Shown here piece after piece: positions 23,110 through 45,607 of a DNA stretch of 64,000 nucleotides. A program made the translations under genes and the position numbers. How positions within the stretch are numbered: position 1 is the first letter of the stretch; each line of letters begins with the position of its first letter. Source of the stretch: Pyrofollis japonicus (lineage in GTDB: Archaea > Thermoproteota > Thermoprotei_A > Sulfolobales > Pyrodictiaceae); NCBI RefSeq assembly GCF_033097485.1, contig NZ_AP028634.1, forward strand, positions 1,603,126 to 1,667,125. Reading direction: 5' to 3'. The notes under the pieces are model-generated. The model ran no database searches. It was not told the origin of the DNA and saw only the letters and a program-made list of their open reading frames with translations.

Positions 23110-23169
23110 CACACTTCCACTATATAGTTCTTTTCCGCGGCTTAGCAAAAGCATGATGAGTGAAGCGTC

Positions 23170-25371
23170 ATGGGTAAGGAGAAGGCTTGGTGGAATAAGC
23201 CCTTACGCGTTCTTCAATTCAATTTTGAAGATAGCTTGGGCTTGTTTACCCCTCGTATACGGGGACGCGATGTAGCAGAGCTTGCCAAGAGAATCTACGC
23301 CAACATGGTGGTGGTGTTTGCTCGCGATGCCTTCGGCTACACGTATTACCGCGGATCAGGCATTGGTCCCATGAGGCCTAGTCTGCGCGGTGACTTTCTA
23401 CGCGAACTCCTTGAAGAAGCACATAGGCATGGTATACGAGTAGTAGCAATGGTAGCTCATACAACGAACAAGCTACTCTACATGAAGCATACTGAGTGGG
23501 CCCAGAAGAACCTGCGTGGAGAACCAGTGCTACTCGAACATGCACCAGCGGAGACGGCTTGGGAACCAGAATGGCCTCTACTCTGCCCCAATAGCCCCTT
23601 CTTAGAACACGCTGCCAAGGAGGTGAGTGAGGTAGTGGGCCTGGGAGTTGACGGGATATTCTTTGATAGTTTTCGTTACCAGCCGGATCCTGAGAAGGCT
23701 TGCTACTGTGAATGGTGCCAAGCAAAGTTCAGAGAAGAACACGGCTATGACATGCCAACCAAGCCCGATTGGGACAATCGTTTGTGGAGAACCCTCTGGG
23801 ACTGGAGATACAGTGTTGTAGTAAGGGCTCTCCAAAGACTGGCAAAAGAAGCGAAGAAGACGAGCAAGGAGATACACGTTATGTATAATAGTCATCCAGG
23901 TGGATGGGCTGGCCGCACGAACCGAGTAGTCGAAATGGCGCGGGGCATCCTTGACGGGGTCTTCGCGGAGTGTAGTGAGGCTGACTTCGAGCCGCCGGGC
24001 TTCATAGCGGAGATGGTGAAGCTCACCCGCGCTATGGCCGGGCCTGGTGTAAAAGTGTATGCATCCCGCAATGCTTTCCACTCGCTGAAGCCGACACAGC
24101 CAGCTCCGCCTCCCCTAATAAGACAAGGTCTTCGCGAAGCAATAATTGCTGGAGGTGAACCCTGGGTACTAGTATTCTCAAGCATGCTTGCTACGACGAA
24201 GAGTTTTATCGAGCCCGTCGAGCAGGTTTTTAGGGAGCATGAGAAGCTGGAAGAATACCTTGCTGGCGCTGAGCCCCTCCGATTCGCTGCGATAGTTATC
24301 TCAAACACTGTTAGGGACCACTATGGTAGACTAGAGCCAAGTAAGTACGTAGACGAGACACGGGGCTTCTACTATTCTCTGCTACAAAGCCATATACCAG
24401 TAGAGTACTTGCTTGACAAAGATGTGTCAAGCATGAGTAAGTACTATAAAGTGTTAATACTTGCTGACACTGCATGCACGGACAGTGAGTTGTTAAATGC
24501 TCTACGTAGTCATCTTGAAGAAGGTGGGACGATTATTGCCACACATCAAACAAGTCTCTATGATGGAGAATGTTTGCCGGCAGGAGGGTTGCTGGCAAGC
24601 AACATACTTGGTGTAGAACTCCTCGGTGAACCCATGACACTAGAATGGGCTTATATCGAGCCCACTAAACCAGGCTTCTTTGGCATCGAGGAGCCGCTCC
24701 TCGTAGGCGATAACCCGAGAGATATGAGAAAACCACTACACTTGGCAAGCCTAGTACCAGTAACATCTCTTGACGATAGAGAGGTGCCGCTGCAGATAAG
24801 ACTTCCTGCCTACCGATATGGCCACGAATACACTCTTGGCCGCTCATCGCCTCCTCCTGGACCGCGTACAGAGCTACCAGCGCTAGTACTCGGGAAGAGA
24901 GTTGCATACTACCCCTGGCGCCTCGGAGCAAACTATTGGGCCACGGGGAACCCTGTGTACAGAAACCTTATAGTAAGAACACTTGAAGCCCTAGGAGGGG
25001 AACCACCGCTCCATATAGGTGCTCCAATAACAGTCCTCGCTGAGCCATGGAGACAGAAGGACAGAGTCATAGTACATCTGCTCAACTATACAGCAAACCA
25101 AAGAATACTAGCAACAGGCTTTACAGGAGCAAAACAACCCCTACCGAGCTACAGTAGTGGTCCTCCAATACACCCCGTTACAGAAATCATACCAGTACAC
25201 GACATCGAAATAAGAATCGACCCAAGCTTATTCGGGTACAAAAGAATCAAGGCATACTCAGCGCTGGACAAGAGAACAAAACTTGAAACAAGAATCAATA
25301 ACAACAAAATAATTATCAAGATTAGTAGGCTCAAAGAGTATGACGTTATAGTCGTTGAGCCTGAAGCCTAG
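23170..25371 (+). CDS. Putative glycoside hydrolase with TIM-barrel and glutamine-amidotransferase-like domains
   Basis: The 733-residue protein has no signal peptide. The N-terminal 330 residues read as a TIM barrel (VLQFNFEDS, ANMVVVFARDAFGY, GIRVVAMVAH, GVDGIFFDSFRYQPD, then EIHVMYNSHPG). The D in FFDSF and the E in FAECSEADFE are candidate catalytic acids. Residues of about 375-480 resemble the class I glutamine-amidotransferase-like trimerisation domain of GH42-type enzymes (KVLILADTACTDSELL, GGTIIATHQTSLYDG). The C-terminus is beta-rich. Its substrate may be the sugar or glycerate glycoside handled by its neighbours. The exact GH family is not recognised. Confidence 0.65.
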   Translation: MGKEKAWWNKPLRVLQFNFEDSLGLFTPRIRGRDVAELAKRIYANMVVVFARDAFGYTYYRGSGIGPMRPSLRGDFLRELLEEAHRHGIRVVAMVAHTTNKLLYMKHTEWAQKNLRGEPVLLEHAPAETAWEPEWPLLCPNSPFLEHAAKEVSEVVGLGVDGIFFDSFRYQPDPEKACYCEWCQAKFREEHGYDMPTKPDWDNRLWRTLWDWRYSVVVRALQRLAKEAKKTSKEIHVMYNSHPGGWAGRTNRVVEMARGILDGVFAECSEADFEPPGFIAEMVKLTRAMAGPGVKVYASRNAFHSLKPTQPAPPPLIRQGLREAIIAGGEPWVLVFSSMLATTKSFIEPVEQVFREHEKLEEYLAGAEPLRFAAIVISNTVRDHYGRLEPSKYVDETRGFYYSLLQSHIPVEYLLDKDVSSMSKYYKVLILADTACTDSELLNALRSHLEEGGTIIATHQTSLYDGECLPAGGLLASNILGVELLGEPMTLEWAYIEPTKPGFFGIEEPLLVGDNPRDMRKPLHLASLVPVTSLDDREVPLQIRLPAYRYGHEYTLGRSSPPPGPRTELPALVLGKRVAYYPWRLGANYWATGNPVYRNLIVRTLEALGGEPPLHIGAPITVLAEPWRQKDRVIVHLLNYTANQRILATGFTGAKQPLPSYSSGPPIHPVTEIIPVHDIEIRIDPSLFGYKRIKAYSALDKRTKLETRINNNKIIIKISRLKEYDVIVVEPEA

Positions 25372-25428
25372 CTCCTCTTCCATAAGACTCTCAAGCAGGG
25401 TCCGGCTACAGCCAAAGGGATCACCACT

Positions 25429-25866
25429 ATGACAATGCATAATTGTGACGCCTACCACGCCCTCGCAGTAGGATTAGTAGCTTTTTTGCTTGCAACAATA
25501 ATTAGTCTCACCCTACAGCACCTTGTCGGCGAGTCTCTTATAGTGTTCCTAACTTACCCTGCTCTTAATGGCCTTCTTGTAGCGGCTTACGCTACTCTTA
25601 ACCATGAGTGCTGGCATATGTACGCGGCTGCGTTATTTGTAGGACTTCCGGCCATACTTGCCAGCTCCGTAGCCCTGGCTGCTGCCCATGAGAGTGACAT
25701 AGAGCCTATTATACCCTTGGTAATCTACTACGCTATTGCATTATTTACGTACACCTTATCCTATTTAATTATCGGCTTTATTGTGCGAAATAATCGGCCT
25801 TGTTCAAGCAATAATGGGTTCCAACATTGCTACCTTGATGCACGTATGCACTATCTCTGCAACTGA
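25429..25866 (+). CDS. Small membrane protein of unknown function
   Basis: The 145-residue ORF has four hydrophobic stretches (about residues 10-32, 38-57, 66-88 and 97-119) and ends in a short Cys/His-containing tail. It has no recognisable family. It starts 58 bases after the hydrolase stop on the same strand and could belong to that transcript. The start could be the ATG at 25429 or the one two codons later. Confidence 0.45.
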   Translation: MTMHNCDAYHALAVGLVAFLLATIISLTLQHLVGESLIVFLTYPALNGLLVAAYATLNHECWHMYAAALFVGLPAILASSVALAAAHESDIEPIIPLVIYYAIALFTYTLSYLIIGFIVRNNRPCSSNNGFQHCYLDARMHYLCN

Positions 25867-25967
25867 AATTATATATCTCACTAAAACTCGCCATACGAAC
25901 ATATATGAATCGATTAAAGAATATAGAAGGATTTGCAGTACTGCTTTGTTGGAAAGATTGGGGGTGG

Positions 25968-26041
<74 letters not shown>

Positions 26042-26107
26042 ACCCTCTTTGCCCAGGGTTTCCGTGTAGTATGCATGGGTTTCTCTACGAGGCAGTTATA
26101 TTGTCTT

Positions 26108-26545
26108 CTATCTTGGAGTACTTGTCTTTGCTGATGCGCTTTCCACGGCCTTTCTAACCTCGGATATGCTTGGCAGCTCTGCTATCATTCGCGCTCTTAG
26201 CGTTATTGTTACCTCTCCCTCTTCCGATGCGTACGTGACGTCGTATTCCTCTACTCCTCTAAACTCCTCTGACTCCTCGATTAATGTGGAGAGTTCTTCC
26301 TCGAAGCCTTGCTTGTCGAGGCCCTTGTCAACGCGGAGCGAGTAGACTGCTTCCACGCCGTCGGGGCTAGCATCTATGAATATGCTTACTACGCCGTTCC
26401 CGGGTGATAGCTGTACGACTATGCGTGGCCCATAGGGGTCTATCTCGAAGCTCTCAACGCTATCAATGCTGGCGCCCAGCGGCTCTATGATCGGCTTGAG
26501 TGCGTTCTCTAGTAGCTTTACGAGCTTCTCACGCCGATTCTCCAA
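26108..26545 (-). CDS. Conserved-looking hypothetical protein
   Basis: The 145-residue acidic protein is not recognised. It alternates short beta strands (RIVVQLSPGNGVVSIFID, EGEVTITLRARM) with helices (LVKLLENALKPIIEPLG), suggesting a compact alpha/beta fold. It has no cysteines, signal peptide or membrane segment. The TTG start is preceded only by a weak GGGGCG. Good coding character and a clean intergenic position support a real gene. Confidence 0.5.
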   Translation of the reverse strand: MENRREKLVKLLENALKPIIEPLGASIDSVESFEIDPYGPRIVVQLSPGNGVVSIFIDASPDGVEAVYSLRVDKGLDKQGFEEELSTLIEESEEFRGVEEYDVTYASEEGEVTITLRARMIAELPSISEVRKAVESASAKTSTPR

Positions 26546-33757: not shown

Positions 33758-33967
33758 CTAGATATAACCTAGGGCTCTTAGCCTCTCCTTGACCTTCTCC
33801 TCATCTTCTTTGCTGAGTTGCTCGCTTGGCTCCTCCGTGCTAAGCGCTTCCTCTAGGAGGAACTCTATTAGTTCCTCTACGCTGTTGAAGCCGCCTTGTT
33901 CCTCTATGAATTTCTGTGCTTTCTCGTAGAGATCTTTCCTTATCTCTACCTGTATCTTTTCCGCCAA
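33758..33967 (-). CDS. Ribbon-helix-helix-like small protein A
   Basis: This 69-residue protein starts with a beta strand (KIQVEIRKDLYEKAQKFIEE) followed by GFNSVEELIEFLLEEAL, the strand-helix-helix layout of CopG/MetJ-type DNA-binding proteins. It ends with EDEEKVKERLRALGYI, a tail nearly repeated in the second small protein at 37957-38199 (EERLRRLGYI-like). It lies 53 bases after the AlkP-type phosphodiesterase on the same strand and could be cotranscribed. Operator or partner is unknown. Confidence 0.65.
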   Translation of the reverse strand: MAEKIQVEIRKDLYEKAQKFIEEQGGFNSVEELIEFLLEEALSTEEPSEQLSKEDEEKVKERLRALGYI

Positions 33968-34020: not shown

Positions 34021-35376
34021 CTAGCTTTTCTGAAAAATTATTTCCTCGAGGTGCTTCCTTATGCTTATTATCTGCATCTCGCCTTTGAAGCCCTTGTCAA
34101 GGGTTCCCTCGGGGTCATAGACGCTATATACTCCTATCCAGTCATGTACTGCGTCGTCGGGACCCCGGTCATTCTCGGAGAGATAGTTTGTGGGCCATCC
34201 TAGGGTTCCTGCTGGGCGCCACCATAGGTCGTCTAGGTACACCATTAGGTCTGGTGCGTCGCCGTTAACCACGGGGTAGAGCTCTGTGGGTCTGTAGGCC
34301 ATGTTCTTCCATTGCTCGCCGCTGGGGCCCCGTATCTTCTCGATGTCTTGTCTCAGTTGCTTGACTGTCTCCTCGTAGTATTTTGGCTCCACGGCGCCCT
34401 TCTTCTCCCTTCCCTTGAGGTTTATGAATACGCGGCTATAGTATCCTCCCCATGCCCATGCTACTGTGTGCTCCCAGTCAATCATGTCTTCCCGTAGATC
34501 GGTTCCGGGCTTCAGCTCCCTTGGGTCTGCTTTTAGCTTCAGGTAGCCCTGCTCCACCAGCCATTGATTAATAGCGAACGCTCCCTTCATGGCCTTGATC
34601 CCGTGGTCGCTCACGACTACTACCACGGTGTCTCTCGGCAGCTTCTCGTGGAGCTTCTCGAACCACTCGTCTATCCTCCTATACACCTCGGGTATGACCC
34701 TGCTGTACTCCGGGTGATACTCGTAGCGTGGGTGTGTCTCGTCGAAGTACTTCCAGAAGGCGTGGTGCGCCCTGTCAACGCTTATCTCTACGTATGCGAA
34801 TAGGTCCCACTGCTTCCGCGTAGCAAGGTACTCTACTTGTCGGAGGTGGTTGTCGAGCATGTGCAAGAGCTCCTTGGCCACCTTGCTCTTCTCGTGGCTC
34901 CGGTAAACAATGTCGAATACTGTTGGCCCGGTTGCGTTCTCCAGCTCCTTGCGGAGCCAGGGCGGGAAGGTGTAGGGCTTATCCGGCCCCGGTGTAGTGA
35001 AGTCGGTGACCATGAAGCCGTGTACTGGCTTCGGCGGATATGTCGGGGGCACACCGTATACTCCGACGCGCAGCCCCTTCCGGCCAGCATCCTCCCATAG
35101 TGTTGGGTAGCGGATGTACTTGCTGTTCACAATATAGTAGCTAAACTCTCCCGGCCTGCGGTGGCGGAACCCGTAGATCCCTAGCTCTCCCGGCGTCTTC
35201 CCGGTGTACATCACCATCCACGCGGGAACGGTTATCGGAGGGTGACATGTACGCATATGGTATCGTTGCCCGTCCTCAACGAGCTGGCTGATGTAGGGGA
35301 ACCACTTGTGCCCCTCCTCGTACAAAACCCTCGGCGGCAGAGAATCAAGGCCTAGTATGAACACTCTTCTAGCCAA
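34021..35376 (-). CDS. AlkP-superfamily phosphodiesterase/nucleotide pyrophosphatase
   Basis: The 451-residue protein matches type I phosphodiesterase/nucleotide pyrophosphatases. A first metal aspartate sits in LGLDSLPP (D11), the probable nucleophile T49 in PPITVPAWM, TDFTTPG follows, and VVVVSDHGIKAMKG carries the second metal site. It has no signal peptide, so it acts in the cytoplasm. Enzymes of this fold cleave phosphodiester or pyrophosphate bonds in nucleotides. Given its neighbours, APS or PAPS turnover is a possible job, but only by context. Confidence 0.82.
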   Translation of the reverse strand: MARRVFILGLDSLPPRVLYEEGHKWFPYISQLVEDGQRYHMRTCHPPITVPAWMVMYTGKTPGELGIYGFRHRRPGEFSYYIVNSKYIRYPTLWEDAGRKGLRVGVYGVPPTYPPKPVHGFMVTDFTTPGPDKPYTFPPWLRKELENATGPTVFDIVYRSHEKSKVAKELLHMLDNHLRQVEYLATRKQWDLFAYVEISVDRAHHAFWKYFDETHPRYEYHPEYSRVIPEVYRRIDEWFEKLHEKLPRDTVVVVVSDHGIKAMKGAFAINQWLVEQGYLKLKADPRELKPGTDLREDMIDWEHTVAWAWGGYYSRVFINLKGREKKGAVEPKYYEETVKQLRQDIEKIRGPSGEQWKNMAYRPTELYPVVNGDAPDLMVYLDDLWWRPAGTLGWPTNYLSENDRGPDDAVHDWIGVYSVYDPEGTLDKGFKGEMQIISIRKHLEEIIFQKS

Positions 35377-35483: not shown

Positions 35484-36560
35484 TCAGCTAGTTACTCTAT
35501 TTATTTTCGTGTCCCCTCGGAGATAACTGGTTATTGCATTGATTATTTCCTCTGCTTGGTCCTTATTGCTGAACTCTACTACAACCACGTTGGTCTTGCC
35601 GCCTGGCTTCACCCCTCTTTCTCGGAGAAACCTAGCCAGGCCAACGAGCTCCTTGGAGACACTCCTAATGTAGACGTAGCCTCTCTTTTCCCTCGGCATA
35701 TAGTGTGCCAGGACCATTACCTTGTCAGGGTTCTCTGCTGCAAGCCTCCTCCCGATGGCGCTCGTCACATAAGCGTCAAGGCTCAGCCAATAAACAGCTA
35801 TGGCTTCGTCCTTGTAGAGCTTCTCCAGAGACCCGAGGGCCTTTTCTACTATTTTCTCTGCCTTTGCAAGGGCCTCGCCGAGCACCCTATCGTTCAGCGC
35901 TCCAAGAGGATCCTCGGCAAGCCTTCTAACAGCGTAGCGAAGACAACTGTAGTCTAGCAGCCGGTAGCAAGAATCAATACTCCTAGCAAGACGGCCAGCC
36001 TCCTCGAGCGAGACATTAGTCTCTTTTAGCAGCTCCTCGGCCAGGGCTAGGCCTGGGTGCTCTCTCCCAGCTTTGAGGAAGGCTTCGAGATCACCTACAA
36101 CGCCTAGGGCTGCTAGGAACCTGTCTCCAGTGTCTCGGGGTTCTCCTAGCAACTTGTAGACGAGGAGGCTGTTACCCGGATAGTCCCTCTCAGAGCCCTT
36201 CTTGAGCGCTACAGGGTTGCAGTAAGTGCTTAGCCTCCTAGGCGGCTCCACAGCGTGGTGGTCGACCACGGCTATAGGCGTGTTGGTCCTCTCTACGAGC
36301 TTGTCGTACTCTTGCCCGGGGATCCCATAGTCAAGCACAGCTAGAAGAGCATCCCTAGGCGGCTCGGGTACTGCCTCGGCGGTGTAGACGCCTATCCTTG
36401 GTACATCTGTGCCGACGAGCCTCCCTCCGAGCCTCCTCGCGAGAAGCGCTGCCGAGGCCACGCCGTCAGCATCCCAGTGATGAACAACGAGCACCTTCCT
36501 GGCTCCAAGGATAATAGTTATTGCTTGTTCACATTTTTCCGGGATTATCACGGTGCTCAC
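35484..36560 (-). CDS. DHH-family phosphoesterase
   Basis: The 358-residue protein has the DHH motifs VVHHWDADGVASAAL (residues 24-38, D30), LAVLDYG, and AVVDHHAVEPP near 96-106. A DHHA1-like C-terminal half ends with RSVSKELVGLARFLRERGVKPGGKTN. Family members include RecJ/GAN exonucleases and oligonucleotide or 3'-phosphoadenosine phosphatases. It could degrade nucleotides such as pAp, the by-product of PAPS use, but this is context only. It sits between the AlkP enzyme and ATP sulfurylase on the same strand. Confidence 0.82.
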   Translation of the reverse strand: MSTVIIPEKCEQAITIILGARKVLVVHHWDADGVASAALLARRLGGRLVGTDVPRIGVYTAEAVPEPPRDALLAVLDYGIPGQEYDKLVERTNTPIAVVDHHAVEPPRRLSTYCNPVALKKGSERDYPGNSLLVYKLLGEPRDTGDRFLAALGVVGDLEAFLKAGREHPGLALAEELLKETNVSLEEAGRLARSIDSCYRLLDYSCLRYAVRRLAEDPLGALNDRVLGEALAKAEKIVEKALGSLEKLYKDEAIAVYWLSLDAYVTSAIGRRLAAENPDKVMVLAHYMPREKRGYVYIRSVSKELVGLARFLRERGVKPGGKTNVVVVEFSNKDQAEEIINAITSYLRGDTKINRVTS

Positions 36561-36746: not shown

Positions 36747-37913
36747 TTATTGCTGTGCCTCGTCCTCGGTTATGAATGGGTTAGGGTGGCTTAGGATCAC
36801 CTCTGCTACCTCGGGGCGCATCATGTACTCTGGCGGCTTTTCTCCACGCTTTATCATTTCTCGTAGCTTTGTGCCGCTTATCCGTACCCGGTACTCTTCA
36901 CCGTGGGGGCATATCTTCTCGTTAACCATTTGGCCGCACTTCTTGCAGTAGAACGCCTCCCTTACGAACAGCGGGGTTATGCCCAGGTCCGGGAACTCTC
37001 TGAACAAGTCCCACGCCTCGTACGGGCCGTAGTAGTTTCCTACGCCGGCGTGGTCCCTGCCTACTACGAAGTGGGTTGCCCCGAAGTTCTTCCTCACGAT
37101 GGCGTGGTGTATCGCTTCCCTGGGCCCGGCGTAGCGCATCTCCATCCTCAGCACGCTGAACACTACGCTTTCTCTCGGATAATAGTGCTTTATGAGCGCC
37201 TCGTACGCCGCTACTATGACCTCGTCCCTGTAGTCGCCGGGCTTCTTCCACCCCACAAGCGGGTTTATGAAGAGCCCGTCGGTGAAAGTGAGCGCTGCTT
37301 TCTGGACATACTCGTGGCCGAGGTGGGGCACGTTACGCGTCTGGAAAGCAGCTATGGTCTTCCAGCCCCTCGCCTCGAAGAGTACACGCGTCTCCTTGGG
37401 CCACAGCCTATACTTCTCAAATGGCTCCGGCAGGTCTCGCAGTAAGTCTACCGGGCCGCCGACTAGGAGCTCCTTCCTCCCCATGGTCTTCCGTACGCCG
37501 GGATGCTCGGCGTCGGTGGTCTTGAACACTTTGGCGGCGTATTCCTTCTTGTCCCAGCCATAGATCTCCTCAACCCTCATAAGGGCGAGCGGCTCCCCCT
37601 GATGATACAGCGCGATGTCGTCCCCCTCCCTCACCCCTGCTATCTCGTCCGGAGATACGTCCAGCACAATGGGTATCGTCCAGGGGATGTCGTTGCTCAG
37701 CCTCATATCGTCGAGGACGCTCAGATAGTCCTCTTGCACGAGGAAGCCTTCCAAGGGGCTATAGACGCCGTGGGCAATGTTAGCTACGTCCGCCGCCAGG
37801 CCGGCCCCGAGCACTACCCGGGGAAGCTCCCTCGCCTCCTCTAGGAGGCGCTGCCTACGCCTATCAGCAACAGTGCGGTCAACCAGCCTACCTCCATGAG
37901 GGCGCGAAACCAT
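36747..37913 (-). CDS. sat: Sulfate adenylyltransferase (ATP sulfurylase)
   Basis: The 388-residue enzyme has QTRNVPHLGHEY (191-202), the ATP-binding HxxH motif, and GRDHAG (285-290). It also has the archaeal zinc site C323, C326, C335 and H337 (FYCKKCGQMVNEKICPHG). It makes adenosine 5'-phosphosulfate from ATP and sulfate, or runs in reverse in sulfur oxidisers. The frame is open to 37988, but the ATG at 37913 has GAGGTGA at good spacing and gives the family N-terminus. It starts 43 bases after the ribbon-helix-helix gene. Confidence 0.95.
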   Translation of the reverse strand: MVSRPHGGRLVDRTVADRRRQRLLEEARELPRVVLGAGLAADVANIAHGVYSPLEGFLVQEDYLSVLDDMRLSNDIPWTIPIVLDVSPDEIAGVREGDDIALYHQGEPLALMRVEEIYGWDKKEYAAKVFKTTDAEHPGVRKTMGRKELLVGGPVDLLRDLPEPFEKYRLWPKETRVLFEARGWKTIAAFQTRNVPHLGHEYVQKAALTFTDGLFINPLVGWKKPGDYRDEVIVAAYEALIKHYYPRESVVFSVLRMEMRYAGPREAIHHAIVRKNFGATHFVVGRDHAGVGNYYGPYEAWDLFREFPDLGITPLFVREAFYCKKCGQMVNEKICPHGEEYRVRISGTKLREMIKRGEKPPEYMMRPEVAEVILSHPNPFITEDEAQQ

Positions 37914-37956: not shown

Positions 37957-38199
37957 CTAGATGTAGCCCAGCCTCCGAAGCCTCTCAATAATAGCCTGCT
38001 TCTCCTCCTCGGAGACGACCTCGCTCCTCAGCTTCTCCTCCTCCATCTCAGCAACGACCTCTCTCAAGACATAGGTGACGAACTGTGAGACACTAGTGAA
38101 CCCCGTCCCCTCTATGAGCTTCTTTATCCTCTCGTAAAGCGTGACCGGGATAGAGACCGTCGTGTACCTCGTCCTCCTAGAAGCAGCCCGTTCATCCAA
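37957..38199 (-). CDS. Ribbon-helix-helix transcriptional regulator B
   Basis: The 80-residue protein has a basic N-terminus and a ribbon strand TTVSIPVTLYERIKKLIEGT followed by FTSVSQFVTYVLREVV, the CopG-type DNA-binding layout. Its C-terminal tail SEEEKQAIIERLRRLGYI resembles that of the protein at 33758-33967. It directly precedes sat and is divergent from the TSUP permease gene. The divergent promoter holds a 16-bp perfect palindrome and a 20-bp near-palindrome. Autoregulation and control of sulfate genes is the likely role, by inference. Confidence 0.75.
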   Translation of the reverse strand: MDERAASRRTRYTTVSIPVTLYERIKKLIEGTGFTSVSQFVTYVLREVVAEMEEEKLRSEVVSEEEKQAIIERLRRLGYI

Positions 38200-38234
38200 G
38201 GCTCTGTTTCCCGGGAGGGTCTTGTCATAGCTCC

Positions 38235-38288
38235 ATTAATTAAATTTTATTAATGAGTGCTGTAGCGAGTCGTAATTAGATCTAATTA
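38235..38288. promoter_or_regulatory. Divergent promoter with two palindromes, candidate RHH operator
   Basis: TAATTAGATCTAATTA at 38273-38288 is a perfect 16-bp palindrome. ATTAATTAAATTTTATTAAT at 38235-38254 is a palindrome except for one mismatched pair. They occupy the 114-base gap between the RHH regulator-sat genes (-) and the TSUP permease gene (+). AT-rich palindromes here could also serve as TATA elements for both directions. Confidence 0.55.
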
Positions 38289-38313
38289 ATGCCGGGGGAG
38301 GCCGTGAAGCTTC

Positions 38314-39090
38314 TTGCCGTCCCTAGGGCAACTAGTGCTCTATGCCGCGACCGGGTTCCTCGCAGGCCTACTCGACTACGGGTTCGCGGCAGGCTTTGGC
38401 CTTGTCGCCAGCCTAGTGCTCGTAGGCCTCCTAGCCATGGATCCTAGAGCCGTGTCCGGAGCAGCAGCCCTAGCCCAGGTCGTGACAGCTGCCCCGGCGC
38501 TCCGTGCTCATCAGCGCCACGGCAACACCGAGGAAGCTAGGCGCAATCCCGGGACCCAGAGAATTATCCTTGGGCTCTCATTTTCCTCCCTCCTAGGCGC
38601 CGTCGTGGCAGGCTCACTGTTCTCACAGCTTCGGCGTGAAGCAGCTCTCCTCATCTACCCGGTCGGGCTCCTGGGCCTAGCAGCCCTCCTAGCAGCGACC
38701 CGCGACGAAGAGGAGGGCAGAGGCACTGAGAAGCCCGGCCTCGTGCCGCTTCTCTACGGCTTCGCCGCAGGAGCCTACAAGGCAGTGATAGGTGGCGGCT
38801 ATAGCGCGTTCATGGTTCTCGCGAAGAAGAAGCTAGGCCTAGGAACCCGCGCCGCCATCGCCCTGACCCCGGTCACGAAGCTCCCAAGCTTCCTAGCAGT
38901 AGCCGCGACATACGCGGCCAGCGGCCACATAGACTGGAGCCTCACCACCATGTTATCGCTAGGCGCCCTGGCCTCAACACCCCTCGCTGCAAAGGCGCTG
39001 CACAATACAAGCCCCGAGGCTGCAAAGCGAGCACTAGTAGCAGTGCTGGTTGCTGTAGCTGTGTATCGGTTCGTGGTTTGCAGAGGCTAG
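38314..39090 (+). CDS. TSUP (TauE/SafE/DUF81) family permease
   Basis: The 258-residue membrane protein has about eight hydrophobic helices in two repeats. The TSUP loops appear as FLAGLLDYGFAAGFGLV and GAYKAVIGGGYSAFMVLAKK, followed by an A..TP.TKLPSF segment. TSUP proteins move sulfite, sulfate, taurine-type organosulfonates or related anions. The TTG start follows GGGGGAGG at a long distance, so the exact start is uncertain. Its divergent position to sat supports a sulfur oxyanion substrate. Confidence 0.8.
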   Translation: MPSLGQLVLYAATGFLAGLLDYGFAAGFGLVASLVLVGLLAMDPRAVSGAAALAQVVTAAPALRAHQRHGNTEEARRNPGTQRIILGLSFSSLLGAVVAGSLFSQLRREAALLIYPVGLLGLAALLAATRDEEEGRGTEKPGLVPLLYGFAAGAYKAVIGGGYSAFMVLAKKKLGLGTRAAIALTPVTKLPSFLAVAATYAASGHIDWSLTTMLSLGALASTPLAAKALHNTSPEAAKRALVAVLVAVAVYRFVVCRG

Positions 39091-39094
39091 ATAA

Positions 39095-39130
39095 GTTACA
39101 GGGGGTGTAACCTGGTTACAGGGGCGTAAC
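39095..39130. repeat. Tandem GTTAC...GTAAC repeats
   Basis: GTTACAGGGGGTGTAAC (39095-39111) is followed after three bases by GTTACAGGGGCGTAAC (39115-39130). Each unit has inverted GTTAC/GTAAC ends. They lie five bases after the permease stop and just before the decayed ATPase gene, so they may be its old operator, a terminator, or a mobile-element scar. Confidence 0.5.
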
Positions 39131-39132
39131 TT

Positions 39133-39466
39133 GCTTTATTCAGGCTAGGGATCAGGGAGAATCCCAGCGAGTTCTATGACTACGAGGACGTGCTCCGCCT
39201 CTTCGTAAAGGGCTTGAGGGACGAGATGACAAGATGATAGTTGTCAAGGGTATTTGCAGGGTAGGGAAGTCGCCGCTCACACGTGGAGCCAGCTCAAGAC
39301 ATGCCTGGAGACAAGGATAGGACGGAGGCTAAACAATAGCCAGTTCACGAGATATCTCAGAGAGCTAAGAGACTACGGCTTCATAGAGAAAGACCGGGGA
39401 CCACTACGTCTTCGCAGACCCATTGATACGAGCCGCGCTGTCACGCCTGAGGAGAGGGTAAATTAG
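39133..39466 (+). pseudogene. Decayed archaeal ATPase (MJ-type, DUF234-associated)
   Basis: Three pieces in different frames read as a family member with its middle deleted. The N-terminal LFRLGIRENPSEFYDYEDVL ends at a TGA at 39235. The next frame gives IVVKGICRVGKSPL, a Walker A remnant. A third frame (39254 on) gives the C-terminal winged helix, SQFTRYLRELRDYGFIEKDR. Intact members run to roughly 350-450 residues, so most of the ATPase core is missing. Confidence 0.7.
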
Positions 39467-39486
39467 TAGTTCAAAGTTCTCCGTGG

Positions 39487-39885
39487 CTAGGATAGTTCTG
39501 CGAGAAGTTGCTCCGTGCTTATAGACTCCGGGTACTTCTTTAGCTCCTTGTCTTCAGTTACAAGGCGGTACCCGCGACTACGGGCAACGTATAGGTAAGA
39601 TGCATCATAAAACGTTAGGTTCTCGTTTATCGCTAGCTCAGCAACCTTGTCAATAGCTCCCTCGATGCTGACTACTTGTACGGCTCCAAGAACCTCTTTG
39701 AAGAGTATTGCGGTCTTTAAAGGGTTCTTTATCCTTCCCCTGCGATACTCTTTCCAAATAGCGTTGCCAACCTCGTAGAACGTTAAGTCGAGAACAGCAA
39801 AGGAGCTAGTGTAGAGAAGTAGTTTCTCCCTGAGCTTGAGAACGAGGGGGTAAATAGCTGAAGCGTCTAACAAGTACTTTGCCAA
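39487..39885 (-). CDS. vapC: VapC-type PIN-domain toxin
   Basis: The 132-residue PIN protein has the first acidic residue in YLLDASAIYPL (D7), a conserved E in FYEVGNAIWKE, and TFYDASYLYVARSRGYRLVTEDKELKKY with the remaining acidic residues. PIN toxins cleave RNA, often tRNA or rRNA. Its ATG lies six bases after the VapB stop, so the pair is one operon. Confidence 0.9.
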   Translation of the reverse strand: MAKYLLDASAIYPLVLKLREKLLLYTSSFAVLDLTFYEVGNAIWKEYRRGRIKNPLKTAILFKEVLGAVQVVSIEGAIDKVAELAINENLTFYDASYLYVARSRGYRLVTEDKELKKYPESISTEQLLAELS

Positions 39886-39891
39886 GGAGGA

Positions 39892-40116
39892 TTACCTCTC
39901 CTCACGTATCCCCCTAATAGTCTTCACCCACTCCTCCTCAGAGACATCCATGGATTCAAGAGCCTCTTTCATAAGCCTCCTAAACCTCTCCATCTTGGCT
40001 CGCCGAACCTCTTCCTCCAATGCCTTCTCCACGACACGCCGGATATCTATGCCGAGCCTCTCAGCCTCCTCCTTAAGCCTACGACTAACCCTTACAGACA
40101 ACACCGCCGTAGACAA
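39892..40116 (-). CDS. vapB: VapB-type antitoxin
   Basis: The 74-residue antitoxin begins STAVLSVRVSRRLKEEAERL, the archaeal VapB ribbon-helix-helix pattern, then has a helical, charged C-terminus that would cover the VapC active site. The frame is open to 40329, but the TTG at 40116 gives the family N-terminus. A TATA-like CTTATATAC on the minus strand at about 40152-40160 fits a transcript starting just before it. Confidence 0.82.
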   Translation of the reverse strand: MSTAVLSVRVSRRLKEEAERLGIDIRRVVEKALEEEVRRAKMERFRRLMKEALESMDVSEEEWVKTIRGIREER

Positions 40117-40268
40117 GCACCATGCACCAATTACCAGTATCCGGGCCCCATGTATATAAGAACAACGTCTATAGCGGCTAAGGCACTTATCGCCATGCTG
40201 GAATAGATTTACGGCTAAGCTGGGTATTGTAGCGCCCACCGTGCTAGATGAGCACCTGAGGTACAGGA

Positions 40269-40278
40269 GCCTATAAGA
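40269..40278 (+). promoter_or_regulatory. TATA-like promoter for APS kinase
   Basis: A CCTATAAGAT element lies about 40 bases before the ATG of the APS kinase gene, at a distance fitting an archaeal TATA box with a short leader. It is divergent from the vapB promoter near 40152-40160. Confidence 0.4.
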
Positions 40279-40316
40279 TACCTCAATCCCCACACGTACC
40301 CCCGGGTTCCCCAAGA

Positions 40317-40874
40317 ATGGCTGAGACAAGGTGCCTTGAGAGGGGCGTAGTGGTCTGGCTCACCGGGTTACCGGGGAGCGGCAAAACCACGCTAGCAACC
40401 AGGGCGGCGGAGAAGCTGCGCAGAATGGGGTACCGGGTAGAGGTTCTCGACGGCGACTGGGTAAGGAAAACAATCAACCCCGACGCGGGCTACACGAGGG
40501 AGGAGAGGAGGCGCCACCTCCACCGAGTCGCGTGGATAGCGAGGCTGCTGGCAAGGAACGGCGTAATAGTGCTCTGTAGCTTCGTCTCACCGTATCGCGA
40601 AGTCAGAGCAGAGGTCCGGAGGATAGTAGAAGAAGAGGGTATACCGTTCCTAGAAGTCTACGTCAAATGCCCCCTCGAGGAGTGCATCCGCAGAGACCCA
40701 AAGGGGCTGTACAAGAAGGCCTTGAGGGGAGAGATCAAGCACTTCACCGGGGTAAGCGACCCCTACGAGCCACCCGAGAACCCGGACCTAGAACTAGACA
40801 CAGTAAATAACACCGTGGAGGAGAACACAGAGAAATTGCTAGCCACAATTCTTAAACACATAGGTATGGGCTAA
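40317..40874 (+). CDS. cysC: Adenylylsulfate (APS) kinase
   Basis: The 185-residue P-loop kinase has Walker A GLPGSGKTT (17-25), VLDGDWVRK, CSFVSPYREVRAEVR with the sulfate-site residues, EVYVKCPLEECIRRDPKGLY, and FTGVSDPYEPPENPDLELDT. These are diagnostic of CysC. It phosphorylates APS made by ATP sulfurylase to PAPS, the donor for sulfotransferases and for PAPS reductase. It stands alone on the plus strand, 2.4 kb from sat. Confidence 0.93.
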   Translation: MAETRCLERGVVVWLTGLPGSGKTTLATRAAEKLRRMGYRVEVLDGDWVRKTINPDAGYTREERRRHLHRVAWIARLLARNGVIVLCSFVSPYREVRAEVRRIVEEEGIPFLEVYVKCPLEECIRRDPKGLYKKALRGEIKHFTGVSDPYEPPENPDLELDTVNNTVEENTEKLLATILKHIGMG

Positions 40875-40972
40875 AATAGTCCCTAAAACTCTCACCAGAG
40901 GCTCTTTCAGCCTCCTTGCAACTAGGCAATAATGGTTTATGCTGGTACCTATAGGGCGTGCTGGCGACTTCG

Positions 40973-41395
40973 TCACTTTGCTTGCACCTTCTCCTTTATG
41001 GCTTCTACTAGCTTCTTTACCTCAGGGTACACGTCCTCAACATCGTTCCTCGTGCCCTATTCCTCGTAGAAGCAGCAGGTGTGGAGCCCGGCTGCACGCT
41101 GGAACACGAAGCGAACCCATGCCCCAAGCTCTTCCGCGACGCAATCCTTGTACTCCCATAGCTCTCTGTGGCTCGCCAGTCTCCTACCCTCCCTCCACAA
41201 CGCGTAAGCCTTCACAGCCGATGCTACAGCACCCCACAGTTTCTCCGCGGCCCGCCTCCTCCGGGAACCACGTAGTAGCCTCCAAGTACTCCTATGCCCT
41301 CTCCTCGGGATCAAGCCCTTGCAGAAGCGCCTCAACCACGTACTCCGTTACTGGTACTCCCAGCTTCCTAGCCTCGTGCTCAACGTGTGCTCAGC
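40973..41395 (-). pseudogene. Decayed PaREP1/HEPN-family gene
   Basis: The central frame (41057-41335) encodes AAEKLWGAVASAVKAYALW and LASHRELWEYKDCVAEELG...LHTCCFYEE, the core of PaREP1 proteins. The expected N-terminus (EARKLGVPVTEYVVEALLQG) lies in another frame ending at a TAG near 41307. The expected C-terminus (DVYPEVKKLVEAIKEKV, stop at 40973) lies in a third. At least two frame changes plus a stop mark it as a pseudogene. From 41396 to 41645 I see no gene. Confidence 0.72.
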
Positions 41396-41645
41396 AAGGC
41401 TCCTTGGAAGAGAAATTGTAAGGGACAAATCCAGAGAAATCCCTACCTATATTGTGCGAGCCCTGCCTTATAGGGAGGATAGGGAGTGCTTTGAAACAAG
41501 CCGTGCTGCTGGTACAAGGACGTCTAGCAGAATCGTGTTTTACGCCGGGCATGCTAGGCTGTGAGGAAGCGAGAACAGCGCTGAACCTAAATGCGACATA
41601 TCCGGGAGGCGATCTCATGCCCTACCTTGCTCTTCGTCGCCTTGT

Positions 41646-42788
41646 TTATGCCTCGTGGTCTAGGAGTTGTACTATGTGTTTGAATCGTTCCTTGAACCTC
41701 TCGTGGGAGAACTCCATGGCCCTGGCTTGCGCCTTTTTGCTCAGCCTCGGGTAGTCTTTGAGGGCCTTCTCTACTGCCTCTACGGCTTCCTCTACCGTGT
41801 TGTAGCCTAGGCCGTATCTTCCATGATACGTTATGTCGTTCCATGGCCCCCCGCTCCTGTGTACCACGGGCACTAGGCCTGCTGCCATGGCCTCTACAAC
41901 TGCTATGCCGAAGTGCTCCCCTATCATCGCGTGTATGTAGACCTTTGCCCTAGAGTATAGCTTGACTTGGTCTCTGCGCGGATAATCAACGTGGAGCCTC
42001 ACGTTGTGCAACTTGTACTTCTCTATGAGTTTCCGCAGCCTCGCAATGTATGGCGGTGACACTTTCCCGCTTGTAGCACCTACAATATGGAACTCCACGT
42101 CTGTCAAGTACTTGGCGACCTCGATCACTAGCTCGTGGCGCTTCTCCGGCGTAAACCTTCCACAGGCAACCACAATATCCTCCCGCTCCTCCGGCGGCGT
42201 CCTACCAGCCTCCAAGAACTCGTCTATGTTCACCGGCGGATACACCACTATAGCCTCCGCTCCGATATGGCGCCTAATCACGTCCCTCGAGTACTCCGAG
42301 TTCGTGAGCAGGACACGCCACCGCATCCTCTTAGCCATATAGCCCTGTATGGTCTCGTAGGGGGCGAAGTAGAGCCTCCAGAACAACGACTTAGAGTACT
42401 TCGCCGCGCTCGGCGTCTCGCGGAGAATAGCGAACGTCGGGAAGTGCATGTAGACTATGTCTGTTGACAGAGGAAGAGTATCGCCATGAGTATTGATTGT
42501 TAGGCTGCACTTCTTCCTATTGACTAGGAGCCCTAGAGCAGAGAGAAGCCTCATATAGATGCCGAAGGTCCTCACGGGGAAGGGTAGGACACTGTACTCC
42601 TCGTCGGGCCGGGGCGCCCGGCCACCATAGACGCGGTCAACCTTAGCCCAGTTGGTAGGCTCGGTAGTGATCAACAGCACCCGGTACCCGAGCTCCTTGA
42701 GCGCCTCGAGGACGGCCATTGCTAAGCGCTCGCCGCCGCCAGTAATGTTCAGCGAGTTATGAACAATACACGCCCTACGCTCACGCAT
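41646..42788 (-). CDS. Glycosyltransferase family 4 (Alg11-like)
   Basis: The 380-residue GT-B enzyme has an N-terminal GGGERLAMAVLEALKELGY (17-35) and the donor-domain segments ACGRFTPEKRHELVIEVA, HVDYPRRDQVKLYSRAKVYIH and GEHFGIAVVEAMAAGLVPVVHRSGGP with the retaining EX7E pattern. The HFGIAVVEAMA motif and overall length resemble Alg11-type mannosyltransferases. It probably acts at the cytoplasmic face on a lipid-linked glycan. It is followed upstream on the same strand by a second GT4. Confidence 0.85.
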   Translation of the reverse strand: MRERRACIVHNSLNITGGGERLAMAVLEALKELGYRVLLITTEPTNWAKVDRVYGGRAPRPDEEYSVLPFPVRTFGIYMRLLSALGLLVNRKKCSLTINTHGDTLPLSTDIVYMHFPTFAILRETPSAAKYSKSLFWRLYFAPYETIQGYMAKRMRWRVLLTNSEYSRDVIRRHIGAEAIVVYPPVNIDEFLEAGRTPPEEREDIVVACGRFTPEKRHELVIEVAKYLTDVEFHIVGATSGKVSPPYIARLRKLIEKYKLHNVRLHVDYPRRDQVKLYSRAKVYIHAMIGEHFGIAVVEAMAAGLVPVVHRSGGPWNDITYHGRYGLGYNTVEEAVEAVEKALKDYPRLSKKAQARAMEFSHERFKERFKHIVQLLDHEA

Positions 42789-42896
42789 CCCATCTAGTCA
42801 CCGCTAAGGCTCCAATACGGTACACATTTACACCAGGGATCTACTCTAAAGCCTTTAGCAACTACAACGATGCCTGACCCAACCCGCCTCTTATGC

Positions 42897-44003
42897 CTAG
42901 GCTCGTGTCTTCTCCTCCGCGATCTTCTCCACGAGGCGCGCTATCTTTTCCCGGAAAACCTCTTCCCGGAACATGGCTGCCCTCCGCTGAAGCCGTTCTC
43001 TCAGCTCCTCGAGCTCACGCCTACTACGCGACAACAAGTCCCTTATCCTGTCAGCAGCCTCCCTCGGATAAAGATACGTGAGCTCAGCCGGGAGATATTC
43101 TGGCACCGCGCCGCTTCGATGAGCCACCGGTATAGCCCCAGCCGCCATAGCCTCCACGACACTTATCCCGAAAGTCTCGTTAACCCCGAGATGGAGAAAG
43201 AACATACATCTGTGCAATAGCTCGTTCTTAGTTTCTTCATCGACGAAGCCGAGATGAGTAAATTTTACCCCGATCCTCTTAAGTTCCTTTAGAACTCTTT
43301 TGCCTGCATAATCCATACGCCCTATTATTACCAGTCTCATACTGCTTGGAAGATGTTTAGCTATAAGTGGAAGAAGCAACGCGCCGCCTTCAAGGATAAG
43401 TCTGTTTACAAGTATACAGTTCTCTCGCGGCTTGTTACGATTCCTATATATAAGTATCTTTCGAAGGGGAACAGGCGGATAAATAACGATAGAGTTTACT
43501 CCATATAGCTTCCTGACGAGCTGTACAGTGAAATAGCTATTGCTTATATGGATCATCATCTTCTTGGAGAGATTCCATACCGGGTTAAGTACAGCATTAA
43601 TAGCATTAGACACATGTTCATATAATGATGAAGGCGATTTCTTCCAGAACTCTATACCGGCTGGCGGCTGATGATAAGTAAGGTCACCAAATACCGGAAA
43701 ATCAGGCGAAGCAGAAGTAATAACAACATGTCTTGAGCCGCCAAAATAGTATAGAGAAGAAGCCAGGCAAAAAACCTTAATAAATGGTTCAAGAGCTATC
43801 CTTAAAGCTCCCTTAATAAAACGGGGCAGCTGCGTATCATATCTACTCAGCCACTTCGATATCATAGAACTGGATATATTTACGACCTCATAGCCTCTGC
43901 GTACAAGCTCTTCATAAATGACCCGGTACACATATTCTCCTCCGGTGCGCGGCTTATCAATCCGATTTAGATGAATCATTACAATACGTATTCTGTTCCT
44001 CAT
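42897..44003 (-). CDS. Glycosyltransferase family 4
   Basis: The 368-residue GT-B enzyme has TGGEYVYRVIYEELVRRGY (20-38), YPPVPLRK, the domain-linking LVNRLILEGGALLLPLIAKHL, HLGFVDEETKNELLHRC, and HLGVNETFGISVVEAMAAG with the EX7E pattern. It is paralogous in layout to the gene at 41646. Codon use becomes more AT-rich toward its N-terminal half. Acceptor and donor are unknown. Confidence 0.83.
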   Translation of the reverse strand: MRNRIRIVMIHLNRIDKPRTGGEYVYRVIYEELVRRGYEVVNISSSMISKWLSRYDTQLPRFIKGALRIALEPFIKVFCLASSLYYFGGSRHVVITSASPDFPVFGDLTYHQPPAGIEFWKKSPSSLYEHVSNAINAVLNPVWNLSKKMMIHISNSYFTVQLVRKLYGVNSIVIYPPVPLRKILIYRNRNKPRENCILVNRLILEGGALLLPLIAKHLPSSMRLVIIGRMDYAGKRVLKELKRIGVKFTHLGFVDEETKNELLHRCMFFLHLGVNETFGISVVEAMAAGAIPVAHRSGAVPEYLPAELTYLYPREAADRIRDLLSRSRRELEELRERLQRRAAMFREEVFREKIARLVEKIAEEKTRA

Positions 44004-44214
44004 TGCATCTCTCCTGCGTAATCGTTAAAGCCCTTCCAAGAACTTCTATTTTTACCAGCATCCATAAAAAGTCAATATTAAGACAAGGCATCATAATATG
44101 CTTTTGAGACTAGAACTCAGATGGAGTGACCTATAGCGTTTTATTAGCCCTTTGTTTAGCGTCTCAATAGGCGTTGATTATATGGAGTAAAATCGCATTA
44201 TATAATAATGATAC

Positions 44215-44406
44215 CTATACAAACCTATAGTTCCTATCCGACCTATAACCGTCATAAAGTATAATAACCTCGTAGTCGTCGAAAGACTGGTTCAACAAGC
44301 TATCAATCGATATCCTAAAGTACCTCAGCCTAGGCCTAAATACCGGCAGAACCACCGATACCCTTACCAGGCCCCCAGGCACAGCCCGAGGAACACTGCC
44401 CAACAA
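44215..44406 (-). pseudogene. Truncated GT2 glycosyltransferase N-terminus
   Basis: The 63-residue frame reads VRVSVVLPVFRPRLRYFRIS and IDSLLNQSFDDYEVIILYDG, the first strand-helix-strand of a GT2 GT-A domain, then stops. No continuation of the donor site or metal motif is found in 44004-44214 in any frame. It is a broken gene fragment rather than a short intact protein. Confidence 0.6.
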
Positions 44407-44440
44407 GAACCCATAAATCGATTACAGCTAAGATATGTAG

Positions 44441-45460
44441 TTAGGAAGAGAACCTATCATGGACCCTCGAGGGTCTACCATGATGCCCCCCAACATGTGC
44501 TCTGCCCAGCTCTCCTAGGAGTGCCTCAGCAGTCCTCCTCACAGCCTCCCTGCTGTTCATCCTCGGCTCCCACCCAGTGTCCCTCCTTATCCTCACTATG
44601 TCTAGGAGCATGAGCTTGACATCGCCCGGCCAGCCCCTGCCGTCCGGCGTCGCGGGCTTATAGACGTACTCCACGCACCGGAGCCCCATAGTCTCAACAA
44701 CAATATCCGCTATCTCCCTGACAGTCACCCAGTCAGTATTCCCCACGTTATAGACCTCCTCCCGCTTCCCCGCCTCGAGCACGTGCTCCACAGCCCTCAG
44801 CGTCGCCTCCACAGCGTCATCAACATACAGGTAGCTCTTCCTCTGCGACCCGTCGCCAAGAATCTCCAGCATCATCGGGTTCTCCTTAAGCTTCATTATG
44901 AAGTCGTAGATTACACCGTGGCGGAGCCGAGGCCCCACGATATTAGCGTAGCGCAGCACAAGACACTTCATCCCGTAGAGCCTTGCATAGGTTAGACACA
45001 TGGTTTCTGCAGCAGCCTTTGTAGCACCATATATACTTATCGGTCTAAGGGGGTGAGTTTCGGGTGTTGGGATCTTCTCGGGATCACCATAAACGGTGCT
45101 CGAAGAGGCGAAGACAACGAGTTTTACATTATTTTGACGAGCGGCCTCTAATACGTGCATGGTGACGGTAACGTTCTGGTGGTAGTGGTCTAGGGGCTCC
45201 CGGACGCTGTGCCGAACCTCCGGGTTCGCAGCTAAGTGGAAAACAATATCGACATCTCTGAATGCTTCGAGCCACTCGTCTGGCCTCAGTAGATCGCCTC
45301 TAATGAATCTAAAGCTAGGAGATCCTATAGCATTGTCTAGGTTCTCTAGACGGCCTGCAGATAAGTTATCTATACCGATAACTGTGTATCCCTCTTCTAG
45401 AAGCCGATCAACAAGGTGGCTACCAATAAACCCGGCGGCACCAGTAACAATGGCTCGCAA
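44441..45460 (-). CDS. NAD-dependent UDP-sugar epimerase/dehydratase (GalE-like SDR)
   Basis: The 339-residue extended SDR has TGAAGFIGSHLVDRLL (6-21), FHLAANPEVRHSV, the catalytic ASSSTVYG and SIYGATKAAAE (Y-x-x-x-K), and RYANIVGPRLRHGVIYDF. This pattern fits UDP-glucose/UDP-GlcNAc 4-epimerases. The last 20 or so residues are unusually His/Arg-rich (HVGGHHGRPSRVHDR) and look like an added tail. The TTG start follows a strong GGAGGTG. It lies in the glycosyltransferase neighbourhood and would supply an epimerised sugar donor. Confidence 0.87.
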   Translation of the reverse strand: MRAIVTGAAGFIGSHLVDRLLEEGYTVIGIDNLSAGRLENLDNAIGSPSFRFIRGDLLRPDEWLEAFRDVDIVFHLAANPEVRHSVREPLDHYHQNVTVTMHVLEAARQNNVKLVVFASSSTVYGDPEKIPTPETHPLRPISIYGATKAAAETMCLTYARLYGMKCLVLRYANIVGPRLRHGVIYDFIMKLKENPMMLEILGDGSQRKSYLYVDDAVEATLRAVEHVLEAGKREEVYNVGNTDWVTVREIADIVVETMGLRCVEYVYKPATPDGRGWPGDVKLMLLDIVRIRRDTGWEPRMNSREAVRRTAEALLGELGRAHVGGHHGRPSRVHDRFSS

Positions 45461-45607
45461 CTATAAGCACCTCCTAGAGCAGGTAAATACGCGGAGGACT
45501 TTAGAAAAGTATTCTAACCTCAAGCTCATCTAATAATAGTAAGTTTTCAGAGAATTCTTCTTTCTAATAATAATTCCTAATTATTATTATTTTAGTCATG
45601 TATATAG

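Follow-up and report, generated by a model that had tools for sequence, protein, structure and literature searches.

The closest described counterpart of the locus studied here is the sulfate gene cluster of Pyrococcus yayanosii, in which PYCH_17520 is a putative copG transcription factor, potentially regulating the sulfate pathway (PMC8268124, in its parts on this cluster). Those parts describe a small ribbon-helix-helix (RHH)/CopG gene before sat, along with a DHH pApase, a phosphodiesterase, an APS kinase, and an adjacent TauE gene. They also report a characterised pApase, encoded in a relative at the position of the DHH phosphoesterase gene listed below, and the lack of an intact sulfate reduction pathway in some organisms with sulfate activation. 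In Palaeococcus, a CopG gene and sat have neighbouring locus numbers, according to the available parts of PMC6981617. Among the RHH proteins treated in the corresponding parts of PMC5569661, MetJ is named as a repressor; F55 of SSV1 is a small protein that binds tandem repeats covering the start site and BRE, its own gene included; and E73 is given an elaborated ‘RH3’ domain in a title cited there.

The window, by which we mean the whole 64-kb stretch of DNA that was analysed, is part of the 2,005,174-bp single-contig genome of Pyrofollis japonicus. In the genome collection, the sat loci nearest to it carry the label Pyrodictiaceae. The features of the locus are as follows.

33758–33967, minus strand: RHH2, an RHH1 paralog (40% over 67 residues, LGYI end in common).
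34021–35376, minus strand: type I phosphodiesterase/nucleotide pyrophosphatase (Pfam PF01663).
35484–36560, minus strand: DHH phosphoesterase (Pfam DHH; synteny).
36747–37910, minus strand: sat, ATP sulfurylase (TIGR00339, 402.5 bits, above cut-off; open frame from 37988, start provisional).
37957–38199, minus strand: RHH1, the 80-residue RHH protein proposed as the binder (Pfam RHH_1, 20.2 bits, cut-off 20.5; superposition on the NikR domain; family recurrence before sat).
38234–38255, no strand: candidate operator site 2, CATTAATTAAATTTTATTAATG, a 22-bp near-palindrome (two 11-nt arms, 91% complementary).
38273–38288, no strand: candidate operator site 1, TAATTAGATCTAATTA, a perfect 16-bp palindrome with two exact TAATTA boxes 10 bp apart.
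38314–39090, plus strand: divergent TauE/TSUP permease, the probable second target (Pfam TauE, 95.2 bits).
40317–40874, plus strand: cysC, APS kinase (TIGR00455), a target in some relatives.

Read along the minus strand, the order is RHH1, sat, DHH phosphoesterase, type I phosphodiesterase, and RHH2. The earlier note on this DNA had spoken of a new sulfur regulator. Regulation by a CopG-type gene had already been conjectured in print (PMC8268124, same parts); no operator for a sulfate-cluster CopG gene was found in the open-licence literature searched, including the available portions of PMC8268124, PMC4463584, PMC6981617, PMC6367845, PMC5840216, and PMC5569661. To the description of the PYCH_17520 cluster in the parts of its paper that are available, the present analysis adds the operator with its 10-bp boxes and the sites at permease and cysC genes. 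New are the operator definition and a small target set, and the system is unusual mainly for the breadth of operator conservation.

MetJ, the methionine repressor, binds tandem palindromic boxes, one dimer each, 8 bp apart. Its likeness to the present system, a proposed RHH repressor of a sulfur-related pathway with tandem palindromic boxes at a fixed spacing, is one of layout only and not of homology. The box here is TAATTA at 10 bp whereas MetJ uses another box at 8 bp, and the ligand and longer chain of MetJ are not seen in RHH1. E73 resembles RHH1 in that the RHH1 model also has a third helix, but E73 and F55 are viral, with other box sequences and no metabolic targets. NikR has the RHH DNA-binding domain on which the RHH1 model superposes; in contrast to NikR, the 80 residues of RHH1 leave no room for a C-terminal nickel-binding domain. 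Metabolic regulons whose operator has been defined are, to our knowledge, few in the hyperthermophilic archaea of this phylum.

RHH1 was modelled as a single chain (mean pLDDT 80.8), and the single-chain model has no assigned strand; a non-helical N-terminal segment is followed by helices at residues 19–28, 37–58, and 64–77. Residues 10–54 superpose on the DNA-binding domain of NikR (residues 1–45) with a Z score of 5.8 and 1.3 Å over 45 residues, and the model also superposes on HP0222; these superpositions come from a second-look aligner with five chains, so that other RHH structures are also possible. The predicted fold fits the strand-then-two-helices RHH layout. A Foldseek search of the model against the PDB returned four matches, none under E 1, and the best PDB profile match of RHH1 is NikR (E 0.0048). 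Single-sequence scores are weak: RHH_1 is matched at E 0.01 by 32 of 65 relatives and CheR_N by 40 of 65, the NCBIfam NikR models score 13.5 to 14 bits on RHH1 against cut-offs of 105 to 119, and PADLOC has no match for RHH1.

The RHH1 and permease ORFs, both with TTG starts, end at 38199 and start at 38314, respectively, which leaves the 114-base divergent gap described in the earlier note. The perfect 16-bp palindrome that the note placed in this gap is there, as is its 20-bp near-palindrome, which is contained in the 22-bp near-palindrome of site 2. The core of site 2, 38237–38252, consists of two boxes 10 bp apart with one mismatch (TAATAA on the minus strand), and both palindromes are one motif, TAATTANNNNTAATTA (TAATTA-N4-TAATTA), with 0 and 1 mismatches. 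Of 5000 dinucleotide-preserving shuffles of the gap, 4 contained a perfect palindrome of at least 16 bp, and site 1 is the sole such palindrome in the window. The exact motif occurs once in the whole genome, in the RHH1/permease gap. With two mismatches allowed, there are 138 matches in the genome versus 128 for the reversed control pattern; matches of this kind are common, so only strong matches carry weight. When the window and seven relatives are aligned, mean column conservation is 0.88 and 0.90 in the two sites versus 0.50 in the rest of the gap. A chance palindrome is rejected by the shuffles, by the uniqueness within the window, and by the conservation at sat-linked RHH1 genes.

The survey of that conservation drew on a search of 197 order genomes for RHH1 (78 have a match at E 0.001, paralogs counted in), on 80 sat loci from the genome collection, and on further stretches. 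After removal of near-identical loci, 77 genes encoding YTTVSIP directly before sat were kept, and two of them (L047 and L072) were dropped for too little upstream DNA, leaving 75 with at least 150 nt. The motif, with at most one mismatch, lies within about 150 nt upstream of 65 of the 75 and is exact in 55, counts that are not independent since the sat-linked loci are related by descent. In L057 and L064, it is in place with two mismatches, and in L050, L085, L104, L179, L093, and L068, it lies farther up, before a cysC, RHH2, or permease gene; L051 and L015, which have RHH1 beside sat, show no motif in 779 and 551 nt upstream, respectively. As controls, the motif was found in 32 of 6198 windows drawn at random from the same loci and upstream of 16 of 222 other mechanical ORFs of at least 150 codons, permease and cysC genes among them. 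The exact motif is present in 6 of 20 genomes of the family, once in each, at five RHH1-sat promoters and at one TauE permease (G028).

When 398 genomes of the phylum were searched with the 65-sequence alignment, 46 had a match at 1e-15. All 28 matches from outside the order were taken and 6 already in the earlier set were left out, leaving 22 new loci, of which 13 have an RHH1 relative that lies 15 to 28 nt upstream of sat. The recognition strand (Y/F)TT(V/I)SIP is kept in twelve of the 13, each of them with an exact copy of the motif. The copy is close by in eleven; in L265, it lies 888 nt upstream, in front of the cysC gene of the same set. The expectation of the earlier note that the palindromes would be conserved in close relatives and would recur before sat orthologs is thus borne out, the motif being kept in the seven-relative alignment and far beyond; its further suggestion, the same palindromes upstream of the RHH-like gene at 33758 (RHH2), fails, as no motif is found near that gene.

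The motif is built as a 10-bp repeat. Among the 65 promoters, the hexamers TAATTA, TCATTA, or TAATGA form 75 pairs at 10 bp, 11 at 20 bp, and 5 at 30 bp, with none at 9 or 11 bp and at most 5 pairs at each other distance. Seventeen of the 65 have arrays of 3 to 5 boxes, none with more than one mismatch, and the permease promoters of L052 and L053 have four exact boxes in a row each. The 16-mer is preceded by T in 53 of 65 cases and followed by A in 47 of 65. No fixed TATA offset was found across all loci, the composition upstream of the boxes being nearly flat. In the Thermococcales and Geoglobus rows only, judged by eye, the first box comes a few to about 20 nt after a TATA-like run, and the last one is followed by a ribosome-binding site; the boxes would therefore cover the start site. 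These euryarchaeal rows are MAG contigs, and the RHH1 of the Geoglobus-labelled locus is close to the Thermococcus ones, so that a binning error or transfer is possible.

Presence of the motif is tied to RHH1 proteins with the (Y/F)TT(V/I)SIP strand. Sat loci with 600 nt upstream number 68, and the motif is present at 44 of the 51 with a strong RHH1 and at 0 of the 17 without (nominal Fisher 7.7e-11, for related loci). The 17 include six thaumarchaeal loci and three (L041, L083, and L096) that are also among the seven changed-strand loci, while L101, with a changed strand and no site, is counted as strong RHH1 in the 51. Sat-adjacent RHH genes with a changed strand (L041, L083, L088, L096, L101, L173, and L177) have the motif in none of seven cases; an eighth row, L094, was left out, its gene being cut by the contig end, and L177, a weak relative (37%), was kept. 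L255, the thirteenth new sat-linked locus, has a different strand and no copy. The changed-strand proteins differ in more than the strand, being the more divergent ones overall (37 to 57%). Another palindrome common to the changed-strand loci was sought by eye and none was found. YTTVSIP is invariant in the 65 aligned sequences because the genes were picked by that strand; among the held-out loci, F replaces Y and I replaces V. Also invariant in the 65 are L77, G78, and Y79 at the C-terminus. A strong RHH1 (at least 85 bits) is found in 55 genomes of the order, all 55 with sat, and 33 order genomes have sat without a strong RHH1. The link breaks farther out: no sat match is found in G326 or G489, where the strand is changed. 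RHH proteins with and without the changed recognition strand offer a natural comparison.

The same sites recur at permease and APS-kinase genes. A survey of 42 distinct genomes, 23 of them chosen for having RHH1, gave 47 exact sites against 12 for the control: 25 at RHH1-sat promoters, 7 at TauE/TSUP genes (three being overlapping pairs of one four-box array in G001), 3 at cysC, 2 at a DUF2061 gene, and 10 elsewhere with no evident sulfur role, as judged by eye. The L219 permease, without a Pfam match, was counted as such because it shares 31% identity with the L220 TauE protein over 187 residues (E 3e-18). In L180 and L222, the permease gene is elsewhere in the genome and has its own copy of the motif, which fits control in two directions. 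Within the window, cysC has no nearby motif (no match with up to two mismatches in 38289–45567). No sign of a large regulon was seen. Across the 197 order genomes, exact sites number 100 versus 37 for the control in those with a strong RHH1 and 110 versus 88 in the rest, a modest genome-wide excess. Six one-mismatch sites, to about 1.47 Mb, were seen in P. japonicus itself among the matches listed: two are inside ORFs, one is in an overlapping ORF, and the rest are beside genes without evident sulfur role or have no long ORF near. The recurrence at sat, permease, and cysC genes points to what may be a small, widely kept control circuit for sulfate use.

RHH1 relatives away from sat behave differently. 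The operator is conserved at the own promoter of sat-linked RHH1 genes, but none of 9 relatives not beside sat has a site within about 150 nt of the relative's gene; those nine genomes contain four exact copies of the motif and five of the control pattern. Seven of the nine relatives (L250, L251, L252, L260, L267, L275, and L276) keep the recognition strand YTTVSIP intact. G509 has no site at RHH1 or at sat. It follows from the nine and from G509 that self-regulation is not a rule of the family. G513 has one exact site 46 nt before a TauE permease and none close to its sat. In G227, copies with one mismatch lie immediately upstream of sat and about 220 nt upstream of RHH1. Exact sites are also present in genomes without a strong RHH1 (G101, G008, G034, G044, G120, and G155); G034 and G044 have three copies each of one repeated 16-mer.

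We consider it probable, from the sequence evidence above, that the two palindromes are operators through which RHH1 represses its sat gene set and the divergent permease. By analogy with MetJ and F55, each TAATTA hexamer, itself palindromic, may be the box of one RHH dimer, with neighbouring dimers filling two or more boxes 10 bp, about one helical turn, apart. As both sites are A+T-rich stretches of the gap at promoter distance, the operators probably overlap the TATA region and the start site of both divergent promoters. Bound RHH1 would keep TBP/TFB or RNA polymerase off; given the placement of the boxes over the promoter, core-promoter blocking is the most likely mode. RHH1 would thereby repress its own set (RHH1-sat-DHH-phosphodiesterase-RHH2, presumably an operon) and the TauE/TSUP permease, so that sulfate uptake and activation would rise and fall together. 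The signal may be APS, PAPS, or pAp, or perhaps the level of cysteine or sulfide. The proposal of the earlier note, an RHH autoregulator facing both directions, gains support from the conserved sites and from the permease copies elsewhere, with binding and repression as its predicted steps.

RHH1 might instead bind the palindromes as an activator or dual regulator that helps to recruit TBP/TFB when sulfur is short. There is precedent in the RHH protein AvtR, which both activates and represses (PMC5569661, in the section concerned), and the Palaeococcus CopG gene and sat both go up with elemental sulfur (PMC6981617, likewise in part). However, the boxes of the Thermococcales and Geoglobus rows lie between the TATA-like run and the ribosome-binding site, where a bound protein would obstruct, and we regard activation as unlikely. 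The position and A+T-richness of the sites would also suit plain core promoter elements (TATA/BRE) of the divergent genes to which nothing binds specifically. Such elements would not account for the retention of both arms and of the exact 10-bp step, nor for the arrays of 3 to 5 boxes in 17 of the 65 promoters. Moreover, sat genes without a close RHH1 need promoters too, yet none of the 17 sat loci lacking a strong RHH1 has the motif, and the Thermococcales rows have a separate TATA-like run. A core promoter element only is therefore disfavoured, and we hold it to be very improbable indeed.

Another factor, RHH2 or a different RHH protein, could also bind the boxes while RHH1 does something else. 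RHH2 is a paralog and is often in the same gene set, and the DUF2061 sites of G101 stand in a genome without a strong RHH1. Against this, L082 and L103, in which RHH2 alone is directly before sat, have no site, which disfavours RHH2 as the binder; the site is present along with RHH1 in L065, L069, L076, and L086, where the stretch retrieved contains no RHH2 match; and the presence of the site follows the RHH1 strand. This alternative is highly unlikely in our judgement. RHH2, with its LGY(I/L) C-terminal end, recurs in the sulfate gene cluster (the window, L052, L082, L103, and others).

Returning to RHH1 as a repressor, one short motif ties an 80-residue protein to sulfate activation and to a permease across a wide range of archaea, and it gives a handle on the role of sulfate activation where the sulfate reduction pathway is not intact. 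It is tempting to propose, tentatively and at somewhat less than even odds, that RHH1 is a dedicated archaeal regulator of sulfate uptake and activation, with a DNA code, (Y/F)TT(V/I)SIP and TAATTA at 10 bp, fixed across much of its own phylum and the Thermococcales- and Geoglobus-labelled loci. The number of boxes would be tuned per promoter, and the signal would come through the third helix from a pathway product (PAPS or pAp) or from contact with Sat. The motif is an argument for assigning the box-carrying permeases to sulfate uptake; if RHH1 is such a dedicated regulator, these TauE/TSUP permeases would be sulfate importers and not sulfite exporters.

Several arrangements were seen in passing. 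In L089 (G185:C1, about 22950–26450), two copies of RHH1-sat-RHH2 are arranged head to head on either side of one operator; they form a near-perfect inverted repeat, possibly an assembly artefact. In L180 (3570–7222, G028), the permease and RHH1 are divergent and about 3.6 kb apart, with an identical 16-mer, TAATAACATTTAATTA, at both ends and, by eye, an RHH-like and a PIN-like ORF between them. In the window, a PIN-domain gene and a CcdA-like antitoxin gene (39487–40329, minus strand) lie between the permease and cysC. As cysC is closely downstream of the permease on the same strand in L032, L034, L035, L036, and L045, the pair looks inserted in the window. Finally, two exact sites 25 bp apart are directly before a DUF2061 membrane protein gene in L218 (2081–2121, G113) and L233 (1501–1541, G101), the assignment resting on Pfam for L218 and on likeness for L233. 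G101 has these two sites although the genome, 99% complete, contains neither a strong RHH1 nor sat, and similar site pairs are present in G145 and G192, of the same genus as the genomes with the DUF2061 sites.
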